From positions 1 to 48,642 of the forward strand of contig JADFXD010000004.1 of NCBI GenBank assembly GCA_015233725.1: DNA of 48,642 nt. The letters are read 5' to 3'. Of the stretch, positions 3,541-44,400 are shown in pieces. The number at the start of each line of letters is the position of its first letter. Within the stretch, counting starts at the first letter, position 1. Source of the DNA: Nitrospirota bacterium. GTDB lineage: Bacteria > Nitrospirota > Thermodesulfovibrionia > Thermodesulfovibrionales > Magnetobacteriaceae. Both the position numbers and the translations under genes were made by a program. The notes under the pieces were generated by a model. That model had not been told where the DNA came from and searched no databases. It saw only the letters and a list, made by a program, of their open reading frames with translations.

Positions 3541-3675
3541 AGAAGAAAGAAAGGGGCGGCTCCGCCCCCCTTTAGAACCCCCTGCAAGGGCACCAGTGCC
3601 CTTGACCCCATAATTCTTAATCCTGATGTCTCATTCTTAATCATATCATCACAGGATTTTTGACAGCAAGAAAAA
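3541..3675 (-). repeat. GC-rich dispersed element, copy A, with long AT tail
   Basis: Core at 3550-3612 contains two inverted repeats: GGGGCGG/CCGCCCC and AAGGGCAC/GTGCCCTT. In the orientation used here (forward = ATGGGGTCAAGGG first) it lies on the minus strand, 70 bases after the kinase stop. Bases 3578-3673 match 15841-15936 over 96 bases with one mismatch, so the repeat unit includes the AT-rich tail. The 3472-3727 gap holds nothing else that I recognise. Confidence 0.85.
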
Positions 3676-30466: not shown

Positions 30467-31075
30467 TTGCCAATGGATAAAAAGCTCTTCTTCGATACAA
30501 CAGCAGTTGTTGACTACATCTTTAAACCCAAAAAAAGAAACACAATAGAAAATATGATTGACAAAGAAAGAAACATAGCCACAACAAAATATACTCAAAT
30601 GGAAATCAAAAAGGGCTATTTAAATAATTTGTGTTTATTGTACAATAAATTATCTGAAACTAATACTTTATCCGCTATCTGTAATTATCTTCATTCCATA
30701 TCATATACACCTTATAGAAAAAACAGAAACATATTAAGTACCTGCTTGGAGACATTGGCAGATTTCTTTGAACAAAATGAATCCTCATTTGAAAAAATCC
30801 TAACTCACTTAAAAAGTTTAACTACCCCTGATGACGAAACAAACAAAAGAATAACCAGCCTGGAAGAAATCCTGAAACTATTAAATAATCCCCTCAATGA
30901 CTTTAGTAATAAGACCCCCAACAACAAACACTGCTGGAATTGCACAGACGCCATTATCGCCGTCTCCGCCCCCAATGACTACGCTATCCTAAATAACAAC
31001 ACAAAACACTTCAACCCAATCTGCAAAGCTATAAACAAGGAAAGCATCACTTACCAGGATAAAACAAAAAAATGA
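30467..31075 (+). CDS. PIN-like domain protein (putative RNase)
   Basis: 202 aa from TTG (AAGGA seven bases upstream); ATG at 30473 is the alternative. The PIN pattern is visible: an N-terminal Asp in LFFDTTAVVDYIF, Glu in YTQMEIKKG, and the C-terminal NCTDAIIAVSAPNDYAIL-NTKHFNPI. PIN domains are Mg-dependent RNases, often toxins (family knowledge). It is longer than VapC (about 130 aa), with a helical insertion at about 60-140. The stop overlaps the lnt start (ATGA). Confidence 0.7.
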   Translation: MPMDKKLFFDTTAVVDYIFKPKKRNTIENMIDKERNIATTKYTQMEIKKGYLNNLCLLYNKLSETNTLSAICNYLHSISYTPYRKNRNILSTCLETLADFFEQNESSFEKILTHLKSLTTPDDETNKRITSLEEILKLLNNPLNDFSNKTPNNKHCWNCTDAIIAVSAPNDYAILNNNTKHFNPICKAINKESITYQDKTKK

Positions 31076-35477: not shown

Positions 35478-35543
35478 CTTTATCTTTTTTTACAGTGGGT
35501 AAGAACATTAACTATAGATGAAATTAAAAAAGGGGGTTTATTG

Positions 35544-36650
35544 ATGAAGATCACTATAAATAGACAAGAGCTACACGACAAATTAGCCGATATACAGGGT
35601 ATAGTCGAGAAAAAGACAACACTACCAATTGTAAATAATTTTCTGATAACATTTGGTACTCAAAAGAGCGAGATATATGCAACCGACCTTGAGGTTGCCC
35701 TAAAGGAACCTATCACTATAGAAGGTATACAAGAGGAACTGACGTTGTGTATGCCCGGCAAGAGGCTATTTGATATATCAAGGGAGGTCGAGGATGACCT
35801 GGAATTGCAATACGATGACTCGGGGTGGGTAAAGTTGAAGTCGGGTAAGAGCTTATTCAGGATTGCCTGTATGAACCCCGATGATTATCCCATCTGGCCA
35901 AAGCTCTCTAATAAAAAGACTATCACCATACACTCGGATACACTACTATCAATGTTTGAAAAGACCATATACTGCGCCGGAGAAAATGACCCCAGATATG
36001 CCTTCAATGGCGTGCTCCTACACCTGTCCGGCAGTCGCAAGAAGCTCCACATAGTGGGTACGGACGGTCACAGGCTCGCAATTGTCAGTCGCGATATGGA
36101 TGTTGACTTTGAGGATGAGATCAAGGTCATAATCCCCAGAAAGGCTGTAACAGAACTCAAAAAGATACTGGCCACCATAGATGAGGAGATAGTAATTGAT
36201 ATAACAAAGAATCACCTGCTATTTAAGTTAAAAGACAAGGAGTTTCTTACACGGCTGATTGATGGCGCTTATCCCAACTACGAACAGGTTATACCGGCCA
36301 ACAATGACAAGGTGGTTGCTATTAACAGGGATGAGCTTATCAAATGTCTACGAAGGATACTGGTCATAAGCAGGGATAAGACACGCATTATGAAGGTAGA
36401 GATAAGCAATAATATCTTTGGGGTCTCCGTCTCAGACCCTGAGATTGGAGAGGCCAACGACAGCGTAAACGTGCAGTATGAAGCAAAGCCAATTACGATG
36501 GGTCTTAACGCGAAGTTCTTGCTGGAGACATTACTGTCAATGCAATCTCCAACGGTAATTATGGAATTGTTGGATACCCTCAATCCAACACTCTTTAAAG
36601 AAGAAGGCTCCGATGACTATCGATGCGTCTTAATGCCCATGAGGATATAA
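35544..36650 (+). CDS. dnaN: DNA polymerase III sliding clamp, beta subunit
   Basis: 368 aa. The beta-clamp pattern is seen from MKITINRQELHDKLADIQGIVEKKTTLPIVNN to the C-terminal YRCVLMPMRI. The ATG at 35544 has AGGGGG 8 bases upstream; the preceding TTG is too close. Forms the ring that tethers DNA polymerase III. The usual neighbour recF is not present; a kinase-like gene follows. Confidence 0.96.
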   Translation: MKITINRQELHDKLADIQGIVEKKTTLPIVNNFLITFGTQKSEIYATDLEVALKEPITIEGIQEELTLCMPGKRLFDISREVEDDLELQYDDSGWVKLKSGKSLFRIACMNPDDYPIWPKLSNKKTITIHSDTLLSMFEKTIYCAGENDPRYAFNGVLLHLSGSRKKLHIVGTDGHRLAIVSRDMDVDFEDEIKVIIPRKAVTELKKILATIDEEIVIDITKNHLLFKLKDKEFLTRLIDGAYPNYEQVIPANNDKVVAINRDELIKCLRRILVISRDKTRIMKVEISNNIFGVSVSDPEIGEANDSVNVQYEAKPITMGLNAKFLLETLLSMQSPTVIMELLDTLNPTLFKEEGSDDYRCVLMPMRI

Positions 36651-36688: not shown

Positions 36689-36798
36689 TTATGGGGTCAA
36701 GGGGACTGGTCCCCTTGCGGGGGAGGTCAAGGAGGGGGCGGAGCTGCCCTTCTTGCGGGGGTTAGGGGCGGAGCCCCTTTCTTCTTTCTTTTCTCCTA
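36689..36798 (+). repeat. GC-rich dispersed element, copy O
   Basis: Forward copy with a duplicated GC block (GGGGGCGGAGCTGCCC and GGGGCGGAGCCCC) and T-rich tail; it ends in ATTATGGGCAGGTACTT, a flank also seen before the VWA gene (7275-7300). Confidence 0.82.
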
Positions 36799-36834: not shown

Positions 36835-37746
36835 ATGAAACTTTTAACGGATGCGGAATTAATAGAAGAGCTCAAGAAACGCTTCCAGGAGCAAGAGAAG
36901 GCCCTGCATGACATGAGGATTATGACCAGGAAGCTGGAGTCTCTAAACAGAAAACTCCAGGAATCTGAGGCATCAAAGTCCAGTTTCCTTTCAAACATAA
37001 AAAACGAGATCAACAATCCCCTGACGTCCATCCTGGGTCTGTCTGAGCAGCTTATGAAAAGCACGGCAAAGACAAAATTAGACCCTGATGACATATCCAC
37101 GATGGCAAGGCTTATACATGAAGAGGCCTTTGGTCTTGATTTCCAACTAAAAAACATCTTTATTGCCGCAGAACTTGAGGCCGGAGAGGCTCATATTGGT
37201 ATATCCCTGGTTGACTGTGCTTCAATTATTAATGCTACCATAGATTTATTCAGACACACGGCAGAAGGAAAGGGGGTAACGATCAAACTCGTACATGATT
37301 GCGTAGAGGAAGAAGAAGCGGAGCCTTTCTTTAAGACGGACCCGGAGAAATTGCAAATAGTCCTGGCCAATCTCGTCTCTAACGCGATAGAATTCAGCCC
37401 CGATGGCTCAGAGGTAGACATAAAGGTGTGGAGAGAGTCTAGCGAATTGCGGATGACCGTAAAGGACCACGGCGTTGGAATAACTGAAGAAGAGAAACCG
37501 CTTATCTTTGACAGATTCAGGCAGATAGAAACTGGAAGCACAAAGACCCATAAAGGACAGGGCCTAGGGCTTAGTATAACCAAGGCCATTGTAGAGATGT
37601 TAAATGGGGAGATCATCGTTTCCAGCGCCAAGGGCAAAGGGAGTATCTTTTCGGTGTCTATACCGGAGTCAGACGTGACGGTCGATAGTGACGTCTTCTC
37701 TACCGATGGCAATGACTTTCTCTTTGATGAGGAAGGGGAATTTTAG
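36835..37746 (+). CDS. Histidine-kinase-like protein lacking the phospho-acceptor histidine
   Basis: 303 aa, no membrane helix or sensor domain, only an N-terminal coiled coil. The dimerisation box aligns with HisKA (SNxSHELxTPL) but reads SNIKNEINNPL: Asn57 replaces His. The ATPase domain is intact: NLVSNAIEFSP (N box), DHGVGI, and GQGLGLSI (G box). It may be a pseudokinase that binds ATP or another regulator, or act in trans. AAGGAG ribosome site. It sits between dnaN and cheD, where recF often lies in other bacteria. The His loss is read directly from codon AAC at 37003. Confidence 0.88.
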   Translation: MKLLTDAELIEELKKRFQEQEKALHDMRIMTRKLESLNRKLQESEASKSSFLSNIKNEINNPLTSILGLSEQLMKSTAKTKLDPDDISTMARLIHEEAFGLDFQLKNIFIAAELEAGEAHIGISLVDCASIINATIDLFRHTAEGKGVTIKLVHDCVEEEEAEPFFKTDPEKLQIVLANLVSNAIEFSPDGSEVDIKVWRESSELRMTVKDHGVGITEEEKPLIFDRFRQIETGSTKTHKGQGLGLSITKAIVEMLNGEIIVSSAKGKGSIFSVSIPESDVTVDSDVFSTDGNDFLFDEEGEF

Positions 37747-37760
37747 GTGCGCCAATAAAC

Positions 37761-38240
37761 ATGGAATCTGACAAGAACATCTATGATCATTTTTTATATC
37801 CAGGCAATATCTATTTCCATAGAGAGCCTTGTTCTATCACCACGATCCTGGGTTCCTGTGTGGCGGTATGCCTGTGGGACCCGGTATTGAAGTATGGCGG
37901 TATGAATCACTACCTGCTTCCCCTATGGAATGGAGAGGGGTTGCCATCTCCGAGGTATGGAAACATAGCGATTGATAAGTTGATAGAAAAGATGCTGTCT
38001 TTGGGCTGCAACAAGAAGTCTTTGAAGGCCAAGGTCTTTGGAGGGGCTGCTATGATGCAACAATCCTCCGGACTTTTAAACGTCGGTGAGCGAAACATCA
38101 TTGTGGCCGAGGATGTGCTTGCCGAGGAGGGTATCACTATTATGAGCTCGGACCTGGGTGGAAATCTGGGACGTAAGATCGTATTTAAGACGGATACGGG
38201 CGGTGTATTATTAAAGAAGGTAAAAAAGTCTACGGAGTGA
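37761..38240 (+). CDS. cheD: Chemoreceptor glutamine deamidase CheD
   Basis: 159 aa. The catalytic Cys33 in LGSCVAVCL and His50 in GMNHYLLP are visible, with VFGGAAMM. CheD deamidates Gln in chemoreceptors and interacts with CheC (family knowledge). It lies 14 bases after the kinase-like gene and 8 bases before gyrB, so it probably belongs to their operon, away from any other che gene in the window. Confidence 0.94.
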   Translation: MESDKNIYDHFLYPGNIYFHREPCSITTILGSCVAVCLWDPVLKYGGMNHYLLPLWNGEGLPSPRYGNIAIDKLIEKMLSLGCNKKSLKAKVFGGAAMMQQSSGLLNVGERNIIVAEDVLAEEGITIMSSDLGGNLGRKIVFKTDTGGVLLKKVKKSTE

Positions 38241-38248
38241 TTAGATAA

Positions 38249-40678
<2,430 letters not shown>

Positions 40679-40768: not shown

Positions 40769-40838
40769 AATTGGCGATCCTTATTCTTTGGCTCGATTGT
40801 TTTGTGTAGGCATGGGGGGGTAATGAAGTGAGGTGATT

Positions 40839-41765
40839 ATGGGTTATGATGTCTTTATCAGTTATAATAGAGAAGACCGAGGCTTTGCTGATAAACTTGT
40901 AAGCGAGTTAGAAAATATAGGTATTGGGTGTTGGATTGACCGTGGAGAGATTGTTGCTGGTTTAAATTGGAGAGAAGAGGTATCTAAGACAATAACAGAA
41001 AATCCTAAACTACTGATGGTTGTTCTCTTGTCTAAAGAAACATTACAATCAAAGCGAGTTGCAGAAGAAGTCGGCCTGGCAGATGACAATGACCTTTATA
41101 TGATACCTGTGTTCATTGAGAATGTTAAACTCAAGGGTGCATTAGCCTTGCCCTTGAATAGCAAACATAGGATAGAGGCTTTTAATCCTGATATTGATGT
41201 TGCCAATGAAATATGTGTTGCATTTAAAAAACAGAAATCTGCTCCCCCAATTCCACCCCCAACACCAAAATCTACGACTCCCCCATCACCTCCCACAAGG
41301 TTTGTGGATAACGGGGACGAAACTATAACTGACAGGTCAACCAGACTAGTGTGGACAAAAGACGCTAACCTTGCAGGTCGCAAAAATTGGCAAGGGGCAT
41401 TAGACTATGTCGCCTCGATGAATAAGGGTACGGTTAAGAATTTTGGCTACACAGACTGGCAGTTGCCAACTATCCAGGAGTTGTATAGCCTTTGTAGGAC
41501 GGATGGGACCACGACAGGTTTAACAGGTTTAAATGGAATTCTACATAGTGGCAAAAAAGGCTATTGTAACGGCAAGAAAGTTGATGTTGCATCATTGCTC
41601 ACTGAGGCTGGCTTTACTAATGTGCGGTCTGGCTACTACTGGTCATCTACGTCATATGCTGGCAGTACGTCCAGTGCGTGGTTCATCTCCATGGTCGGTG
41701 GCCGCGTCTACGCCGACGTTAAGTCCAACAACGACTACGTTTGGCCGGTTCGTTCTGGACATTGA
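40839..41765 (+). CDS. TIR-domain protein with C-terminal DUF1566 (C-lectin-like) domain; candidate retroelement-diversified target
   Basis: 308 aa. TIR (about 1-130): YDVFISYNREDRGFADKL, GCWIDRGEI, LLSKETLQSKRVAEEVGLA with the candidate catalytic Glu. A Pro/Thr-rich linker (about 138-152) leads to DUF1566 (about 153-308): DTITDRSTRLVWTKDAN-like start, WQLPTIQELYSLC, SGYYWSSTSYA and the end VWPVRSGH. TIR domains often cleave NAD as immune effectors (family knowledge). The last codons (41682-41741) are mostly NNC, unlike the AT-rich rest, and a hairpin follows the stop; both match diversity-generating-retroelement targets. No reverse transcriptase is in the window. The ATG at 40839 has GAGGTGA upstream and is preferred to GTG 40833. 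Confidence 0.82.
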   Translation: MGYDVFISYNREDRGFADKLVSELENIGIGCWIDRGEIVAGLNWREEVSKTITENPKLLMVVLLSKETLQSKRVAEEVGLADDNDLYMIPVFIENVKLKGALALPLNSKHRIEAFNPDIDVANEICVAFKKQKSAPPIPPPTPKSTTPPSPPTRFVDNGDETITDRSTRLVWTKDANLAGRKNWQGALDYVASMNKGTVKNFGYTDWQLPTIQELYSLCRTDGTTTGLTGLNGILHSGKKGYCNGKKVDVASLLTEAGFTNVRSGYYWSSTSYAGSTSSAWFISMVGGRVYADVKSNNDYVWPVRSGH

Positions 41766-42699: not shown

Positions 42700-44400
42700 T
42701 TGTCTGACGATGTAGGGACATTAGAGCGTAGATTGCAGGAGCAGGGTGATGAGATAGTAGCGCTCAAGGCCCTTCTATGCCAAAAGTGTCATCTGGCAAG
42801 TGACCTGCTCAAGATAGGCGCTGCCCTGTCGGCAGAGAAGAACATAGAGGCCCTTCTGGAGATGATCGTCGTTGAGGCTATGAAGCTGACAAACTCAGAC
42901 GGTGCAACCCTTTACATCAAGACTACCGATGACGTGGCCATCGCCTTTAAGATTCTGCAAAACCGTACCTTGGGGTTACAGATGGGTGGCACGAGCGCAA
43001 ATGAGATAAAGTTTCCCCCCCTGAAGTTATACAACCCCGATGGTACCGTTAACAAGCACCTCGTCTCAGTATATGTAGCCCTGACAGGCACGACGTTAAA
43101 CATCCCCGATGTCTATGAAATAGAGGGCTTTGACTTTCAGGGTACCAAGGCCTTTGATAAAAAAACGGGCTATCGTTCCAAGTCCATGCTTGTAACGGCG
43201 CTGAGAAACTATGAAAACGAGATAATCGGTGTCCTGCAATTAATCAATTCCCTGGACGATAAGGGCAGTATAATACCGTTTTCCTTGGAACATCAGGAGT
43301 TGACAGAGTCTTTGGCCTCACAGGCGGCTGTGGCCATCACCAATGCCTCCCTGCTCAATGACCTGAAGAACCTTATGGATGGCTTCATCAAGAGCATCGC
43401 GGGCGCCATTGACCAGAAGTCTCCCTATACGGGAGGACATATCCGCCGCGTGGCAGAGCTCACACTGGATATCGCCCAGGGCCTTACCAAATCAAACGAC
43501 CAGAGATGGCAAGACTTTAACCTCTCCCAGGATGAGCTAAACGAACTAAGAATTGCCGCGTGGATGCACGATATCGGCAAGATATCCACCCCTGAGCACA
43601 TAGTGGATAAGGCAACTAAACTCGAGAGCATATATGACAGGATTAAATACATAGAGGCAAAGTTTGAGATACTCAGCCGTGATATCGAACGGTTCTATTT
43701 AAAGAAACACGCCGAGATATCCTCCTGTGACGATAACGACAGGCAGGGACAACTGCAAAGACTCAAGGAGGTCTACGACGAGCGAATAAAAAAGATCGCC
43801 TCAGACCTTGACTTCCTGATGCTCGTTAATAAAGGCGGAGAATTTATGTCAGATGCCTTTGTCGATCGGGTAAAGGACATTGCCACCACACAGATTATCA
43901 TCAATGGCGTACAACAAAACCTGCTGACCGAGGACGAGGTCAATAACCTGATCATCAGAAAGGGGACGTTGACAGAAAAAGAGCGAAATATTATCCAAAA
44001 TCACGTGGTCTTGACGCACTCAATGCTTGCCAAACTACCGTGGCCCAAGAAACTCAAGGGCGTCTGTGAATATGCCGGCGAGCACCACGAAAAACTCGAT
44101 GGTACAGGCTATCCTAACGGCCTGGAAGCCGACTCCTTATCCGTACAGTCAAGGATCATAGCGATCGCAGATATATTTGAGGCGCTATCGGCAGGGGACA
44201 GACCCTATAAATATGGAAAGAAACTATCAGAGTGTGTTAAGATAATAGGCATGATGGTCAAGGATAACCACATAGACAAAGATATCGTGGACTTCTTTAT
44301 CCATTCAGGATCACTACAGAAGTACGCAAGGAAAGAGCTGAAGGATTATCAGATAGACCCCTTTACGTACAATGGCGTAACGTATGACTTTAAGGTGTAA
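42700..44400 (+). CDS. GAF-HD-GYP cyclic-di-GMP phosphodiesterase
   Basis: 566 aa from TTG with GAGG just upstream. Coiled N-terminus, a GAF domain (about 25-225), then HD-GYP with His290-Asp291 in WMHDIGKIS, HH-EKLDGTGYPNGL (GYP at 470-472) and a roughly 100-residue insertion (about 310-415) between the metal-binding parts. Hydrolyses c-di-GMP (family knowledge); the GAF ligand is unknown. Acts opposite to the cyclase at 9515-11707. It overlaps by position the promoter-poor leader of the next methyltransferase gene, which starts 28 bases later. Confidence 0.92.
   Translation: MSDDVGTLERRLQEQGDEIVALKALLCQKCHLASDLLKIGAALSAEKNIEALLEMIVVEAMKLTNSDGATLYIKTTDDVAIAFKILQNRTLGLQMGGTSANEIKFPPLKLYNPDGTVNKHLVSVYVALTGTTLNIPDVYEIEGFDFQGTKAFDKKTGYRSKSMLVTALRNYENEIIGVLQLINSLDDKGSIIPFSLEHQELTESLASQAAVAITNASLLNDLKNLMDGFIKSIAGAIDQKSPYTGGHIRRVAELTLDIAQGLTKSNDQRWQDFNLSQDELNELRIAAWMHDIGKISTPEHIVDKATKLESIYDRIKYIEAKFEILSRDIERFYLKKHAEISSCDDNDRQGQLQRLKEVYDERIKKIASDLDFLMLVNKGGEFMSDAFVDRVKDIATTQIIINGVQQNLLTEDEVNNLIIRKGTLTEKERNIIQNHVVLTHSMLAKLPWPKKLKGVCEYAGEHHEKLDGTGYPNGLEADSLSVQSRIIAIADIFEALSAGDRPYKYGKKLSECVKIIGMMVKDNHIDKDIVDFFIHSGSLQKYARKELKDYQIDPFTYNGVTYDFKV

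Follow-up and report, generated by a model that had tools for sequence, protein, structure and literature searches.

The window, a 48,642-nucleotide stretch of DNA from a Nitrospirota bacterium of the family Magnetobacteriaceae (contig JADFXD010000004.1, positions 1 to 48,642 of the forward strand), contains a replication gene cluster in which a gene for a histidine-kinase-like protein lies between dnaN and a cheD-gyrB pair (Table 1). We refer to the family of Asn-box HisKA proteins to which its product belongs as NHK, a label of our own. Only 14 bp separate the NHK gene from cheD, and 8 bp separate cheD from gyrB. In the 184-bp gap between dnaN and the NHK gene lie a terminator-like site and one copy of a palindromic repeat that is dispersed through the window, so cotranscription of these two genes is not obvious.

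Table 1. Positions of genes and sequence features at the NHK locus, numbered from the first nucleotide of the window.
Feature	Position	Strand	Basis or remark
dnaA	34052..35383	+	Curated models
dnaN	35541..36650	+	Curated models
NHK, Asn-box histidine-kinase-like protein, 303 aa	36835..37746	+	ORF, Pfam and model
HisKA (DHp) match, residues 48-98	36976..37128	+	Pfam
Codon AAC, Asn57, at the phospho-acceptor His site	37003..37005	+	Asn in 98/98 distinct relatives
Codon AAT, Asn61 (H+4), counterpart of the HisKA phosphatase residue	37015..37017	+	Role from PMC3510030
DHp helix 2 signature DFQLKNIFxAAExEAG, residues 102-117	37138..37185	+	Near-invariant across the NHK family
HATPase_c domain, N/G1/F/G2 boxes intact	37339..37668	+	Pfam, alignment
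Acidic C-terminal tail ending in Phe	37690..37743	+	Low-confidence in model
cheD, chemoreceptor glutamine deamidase	37761..38240	+	PF03975 1e-29, curated models
Signature of NHK-linked CheDs, GGMNHYLLPLWNGEGLPSPRYGNIAIDKL	37896..37982	+	Mostly missing from unlinked CheDs of the phylum
gyrB	38249..40678	+	Curated models

The palindromic repeat, GTCAAGGGGACTGGTCCCCTTGCGGG, lies at positions 36696-36721 and recurs at 3581, 7166, 8379, 15844, 22799, 31093, 40738 and 45120, which makes 9 copies with no more than 3 mismatches in the window against 0 expected. One of these copies falls just within the listed start of the ORF at 31072. Directly 3' of gyrB (40833-41765) is a gene for a protein with TIR_2 and Lcl_C domains, possibly a defence or signalling gene, and downstream of the cluster (42700-44400) is a 566-aa ORF with a translation that looks like a GAF and HD-GYP protein.

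Domain organization of the NHK protein

The NHK protein consists, in order, of an N-terminal helix, a HisKA-type DHp domain, a HATPase_c domain and an acidic C-terminal tail. A Pfam scan of the protein returned only HisKA and HATPase-type families (HATPase_c at 9e-29; HisKA at 26.4 bits, slightly under the cut-off of 26.9), with no recognized sensor domain and no match to the CheC, CheX or CheZ family models. The box around Asn57 is FLSNIKNEINNPL (FLSNIK-N-EINNPL), and the N, G1, F and G2 boxes of the ATP site are intact here and conserved family-wide. The ORF, the Pfam scan and the family alignment thus bear out the preliminary description of a histidine-kinase-like protein with Asn57 in place of His and intact ATP-binding motifs. 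The protein has the HATPase_c boxes of an active HisKA kinase but lacks the phospho-acceptor His, and Asn61 supplies the Asn or Thr that characterizes HisKA receiver phosphatases at H+4. With a conserved non-His residue on an otherwise intact histidine kinase fold, it is a pseudo-histidine kinase of the DivL kind, although it has neither the Tyr at the site nor the PAS sensors of the DivL family proper.

The best fold matches of an AF2 model of the NHK protein (mean pLDDT 78) are the receiver-bound HK853-RR468 complex and DivL, a likeness that is suggestive but weak since the model is of a single chain. The C-terminal tail is probably disordered, judging from this model, and its final Phe is found in 91 of 98 relatives.

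Asparagine at the phospho-acceptor site is a family trait

A first search of genome contigs with six patterns yielded 80 relatives, all of which have Asn at the site where the region is present. Because one of these patterns included the Asn, the search was repeated with a whole-protein profile in 148 Nitrospirota. This search recovered NHK members in 20 genomes at 243-419 bits; the next-best matches, at 191 bits or less, are ordinary kinases, and those that we read have His. Altogether, Asn occupies the site in all 98 distinct relatives that have the region, a frequency far beyond chance given that ordinary kinases from the same genomes carry His there. These Asn-box proteins come from several bacterial phyla, and in a phylogenetic tree one fully supported branch splits them from the His kinases. 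The dN/dS of the NHK gene relative to its two nearest relatives is 0.13-0.16, values that indicate purifying selection. The conservation of the Asn, the separate clade and the low dN/dS therefore indicate that codon 57 reflects neither error nor decay. No orthologue has His at this position, the finding that the preliminary description had named as the sign of a local mutation or error.

The residues that follow the site are conserved as well. Glu is found at H+1 in 96 of the 98 relatives, and H+4 is Asn in 94, Ser in 3 and Asp in 1, the four exceptions being divergent members. One genome (G145) has two divergent NHK-cheD pairs (L133 and L134), with Ser and Asp at H+4; the two NHKs may have lost phosphatase activity. 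Two His-bearing proteins adjoining a CheD (L165 and L160) were considered as sisters of the family and rejected, as they are NtrB-like kinases and not close relatives. A survey of 296 Bacteroidota genomes found NHK in the centre genome only, and the family is rare in Bacteroidota as sampled. We found no earlier account of the NHK family in the open-access literature; most subscription papers, including the main chemotaxis-system classification, lay outside this search, and an earlier mention is possible.

NHK is paired with cheD

The product of the cheD gene downstream of NHK belongs to the CheD family by its family match and by its catalytic Cys and His; aligned to T. maritima CheD (2f9z), it keeps the catalytic-site residues T28, C33 and H50. 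Of 116 entries, which count some genomes twice via two overlapping loci, 111 have cheD as the next gene downstream of NHK, mostly within about 15 bp. Three of the five entries without an adjacent cheD call end at a contig edge, and the other two represent one genome, in which CheD was located at that position. cheD is the invariant partner of NHK and lies directly downstream wherever the sequence continues. A candidate natural NHK-CheD fusion in genome G016 (a 453-aa frame) was rejected, since it comprises two genes in different frames.

When 99 loci were classified by their neighbouring genes, 72 were found to include at least two of cheA, cheW, cheR, cheB and mcp, and 8 include one of these; 13 lie in a replication cluster and 6 are of other kinds or short. 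The usual order in Bacteroidota is cheA-cheW-cheR-NHK-cheD-cheB, sometimes with mcp. The MCPs of NHK operons often end in a receptor pentapeptide (D-x-[FY]-E-[KR]-[FY]). The C-terminal tail of NHK was considered as a copy of this pentapeptide and rejected because the likeness is only partial. From sequence and gene order, we conclude that NHK is a kinase-dead, sensor-less, soluble HisKA family and the constant genetic partner of CheD in chemotaxis systems.

The CheDs that are linked to NHK are themselves distinct. The catalytic-site Thr, Cys and His are kept in 95 of 95 NHK-linked CheDs, which share the loop NHY.LP.WNG..L.SP.[YF]GNIAI. Residues W56, G58, L61 and G67 are each present in all 95. 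Among 20 CheDs encoded at Nitrospirota loci where no NHK adjoins, the loop is mostly missing and these residues are not the rule. An unlinked CheD is also present in this genome, in an ordinary che operon on another contig (C103). A Phe that marks CheC-binding CheDs, those of species with CheC (PMC3513319), occurs in only 3 of the 95 linked CheDs. The private loop signature and the rarity of this Phe suggest that the linked CheD and NHK have evolved to fit each other.

Placement in the replication cluster and absence of recF

The dnaN-NHK-cheD-gyrB arrangement is confined to Magnetobacteriaceae and accounts for the 13 replication-cluster loci. In a single-contig genome (G073), the order dnaA-dnaN-NHK-cheD-gyrB-gyrA stands at the contig start; in another genome of this family (G135), the NHK-cheD pair sits elsewhere. 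Replication-cluster NHKs nest within che-operon relatives in the tree, and our reading is that the NHK-cheD pair moved from a che operon into the dnaA-dnaN-gyrB cluster and was retained in one family. On a contig binned to Magnetococcales (L016), an NHK that nests among those of Magnetobacteriaceae has its own pair outside a replication cluster, a placement that represents either a binning error or a transfer.

The preliminary description was correct in placing the NHK gene between dnaN and cheD-gyrB. Its proposal that the gene replaces recF there is not upheld. A search for recF elsewhere in this genome, as the description had recommended, found none above the cut-off. However, recF is missing from 142 of 148 sampled Nitrospirota and present in 6, and in two genomes (G006 and G016) recF occurs alongside NHK. 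The rarity of recF in the phylum and its coexistence with NHK therefore indicate that NHK did not replace it.

A proposed role for NHK in chemotaxis

We propose that NHK binds CheY~P, dephosphorylates it and controls CheD in the manner of CheC, a model to which, taken as a whole, we assign a probability of about one half. Within the chemotaxis machinery, NHK would most likely serve in adaptation or as an off-switch. Its DHp helices would bind the phosphorylated receiver of its own chemotaxis system, either CheY~P or CheB~P, and the Glu-Asn pair of the ExxN motif (E58 and N61) would speed dephosphorylation of the bound receiver, with nucleotide in the CA domain favouring the dephosphorylating state. 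NHK would also bind CheD, and CheY~P levels would thereby govern the amount of CheD that is free for receptors, a role that we liken to that of Bacillus CheC acting with CheD. We infer receiver binding, phosphatase activity, CheD binding and the role in adaptation. A broader proposal, which we advance more tentatively, is that a histidine-kinase scaffold was turned wholly to chemotactic adaptation. As a HisKA enzyme without kinase activity, NHK would remove the phosphate from CheY~P and gate CheD, and in entire lineages, namely chemotactic Bacteroidota and certain other groups, it would stand in for the unrelated phosphatases CheC, CheX and CheZ.

In HisKA kinases, Thr or Asn at H+4 is needed for phosphatase activity and loss of the His costs little: the half-life of CrdA~P is 0.7 min with the wild-type kinase, 2.6 min with the H371A variant and 53.5 min alone (PMC3510030). 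Glu-x-x-Asn is the motif of CheX as well (PMC3510030). ADP in the CA domain stimulates HisKA phosphatase activity (PMC7005713), which would explain why NHK has retained its ATP site. An H+4 Asn and an ATP site kept without the His are what a phosphatase-only HisKA protein would be expected to look like. Phosphatase chemistry alone leaves the conservation of the H+1 Glu unexplained, since this residue is required for the kinase activity of HisKA proteins and not for their phosphatase activity (PMC3510030).

The distribution of known phosphatases also bears on the model. Among 25 Bacteroidota genomes, all NHK carriers, 23 gave no match to CheZ, CheX or CheC; the other two each gave a single weak match, CheX-like in one and CheC-like in the other, and CheZ was found in none. 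Bacteroidota NHK operons often encode a CheY with an intact D/D/K active site, which leaves these carriers, NHK aside, with no known phosphatase for CheY~P. Nitrospirota carriers, including this genome, often have CheX, CheC or CheZ too, so the exclusion supports a phosphatase role only in part; the coexistence itself neither helps nor hurts the model. With respect to CheD, studies of Bacillus CheC and CheD indicate how CheD can be metered by a partner that binds CheY~P (PMC3513319).

The alternative that survives best, although we consider it unlikely, is that NHK is a phospho-receiver sensor without enzymatic activity, which would bind CheY~P via its DHp domain and signal by binding or releasing CheD. 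DivL, which has Tyr for His, keeps its histidine kinase motifs yet is neither a kinase nor a phosphatase, and serves to sense DivK~P (PMC4211667), so the presence of the motif is not sufficient for phosphatase activity. DivL is among the nearest folds to the NHK model, and in B. subtilis the binding of CheC to CheD matters more than the phosphatase activity of CheC (PMC3513319). However, ATP binding is poor in DivL, and the near-invariance of the ATP motifs and the H+4 Asn in NHK suggests catalysis or nucleotide-gated binding.

It is considerably more doubtful that NHK is a trans-acting kinase, its CA domain phosphorylating the His of a heterodimer partner or of a free HPt protein. The intact ATP site and the conserved H+1 Glu would suit such a kinase, and some NHK operons have an HPt-like gene (cluster C10, its identity read from sequence). 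Nevertheless, that gene is present in just 11 loci, and no recurrent His-bearing partner kinase adjoins NHK, whose invariant neighbour is CheD.

Very improbable is the coupling to replication or supercoiling that the preliminary description drew from the link with gyrB, by which NHK would signal to gyrase or the sliding clamp. The dnaN-NHK-cheD-gyrB order is kept across Magnetobacteriaceae and the small NHK-cheD-gyrB gaps suggest cotranscription, yet the replication placement represents 13 of 99 loci in a single family, of which G135 has its pair elsewhere. The conserved link is to cheD, a receptor deamidase that moved along with NHK, and most relatives, including those of other phyla, lie in che operons. 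Apart from the gene order in this one family, nothing points to replication. A decaying pseudogene, an assembly error at codon 57 or the passenger gene that the preliminary description also allowed for would fit the missing key residue and the unusual genomic place, but has a negligible chance given the Asn in 98 of 98 distinct sequences across phyla, the dN/dS of 0.13-0.16 and the invariant ATP motifs.

Known removal of CheY~P and control of CheD rely on a few phosphatase folds. If the phosphatase and CheD-gating model is correct, chemotaxis in bacteria would gain a new component, a kinase-dead histidine kinase that is widespread and tied to CheD, a candidate phosphatase could be named for chemotactic Bacteroidota that seemingly have none, and pseudo-histidine kinases would have a second well-defined job beside that of DivL. 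Culturable carriers of NHK include Labilibacter, Saccharicrinis and Reichenbachiella.

Comparison with known systems

The CheC-CheD system of Bacillus subtilis and Thermotoga maritima resembles NHK-CheD in joining cheD to a putative CheY~P-handling partner with an acidic-plus-amide motif, and in both systems the catalytic residues of CheD are kept. In contrast, CheC has an unrelated fold, NHK being composed of HisKA and HATPase_c domains, and the CheC-binding Phe of CheD is rare in NHK-linked CheDs. Caulobacter DivL shares with NHK the HisKA and CA fold, a non-His residue at the site and a close fold match. DivL has Tyr at the site, carries PAS sensors, binds ATP weakly and targets CckA, whereas NHK has Asn, lacks a sensor domain, conserves the ATP motifs and is associated with CheD. 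The bifunctional HisKA proteins HK853, CrdS and EnvZ have the same domains as NHK, the H+1 Glu and Asn or Thr at H+4; unlike them, NHK cannot undergo autophosphorylation at the canonical His and has no sensor or membrane part. CheA3 of Rhodobacter sphaeroides is likewise related to histidine kinases, works in chemotaxis and acts as a receiver phosphatase (PMC2924250, PMC6829392), but its architecture is of the CheA type, with P1 and P5 around the phosphatase region, and it has no known link to CheD.
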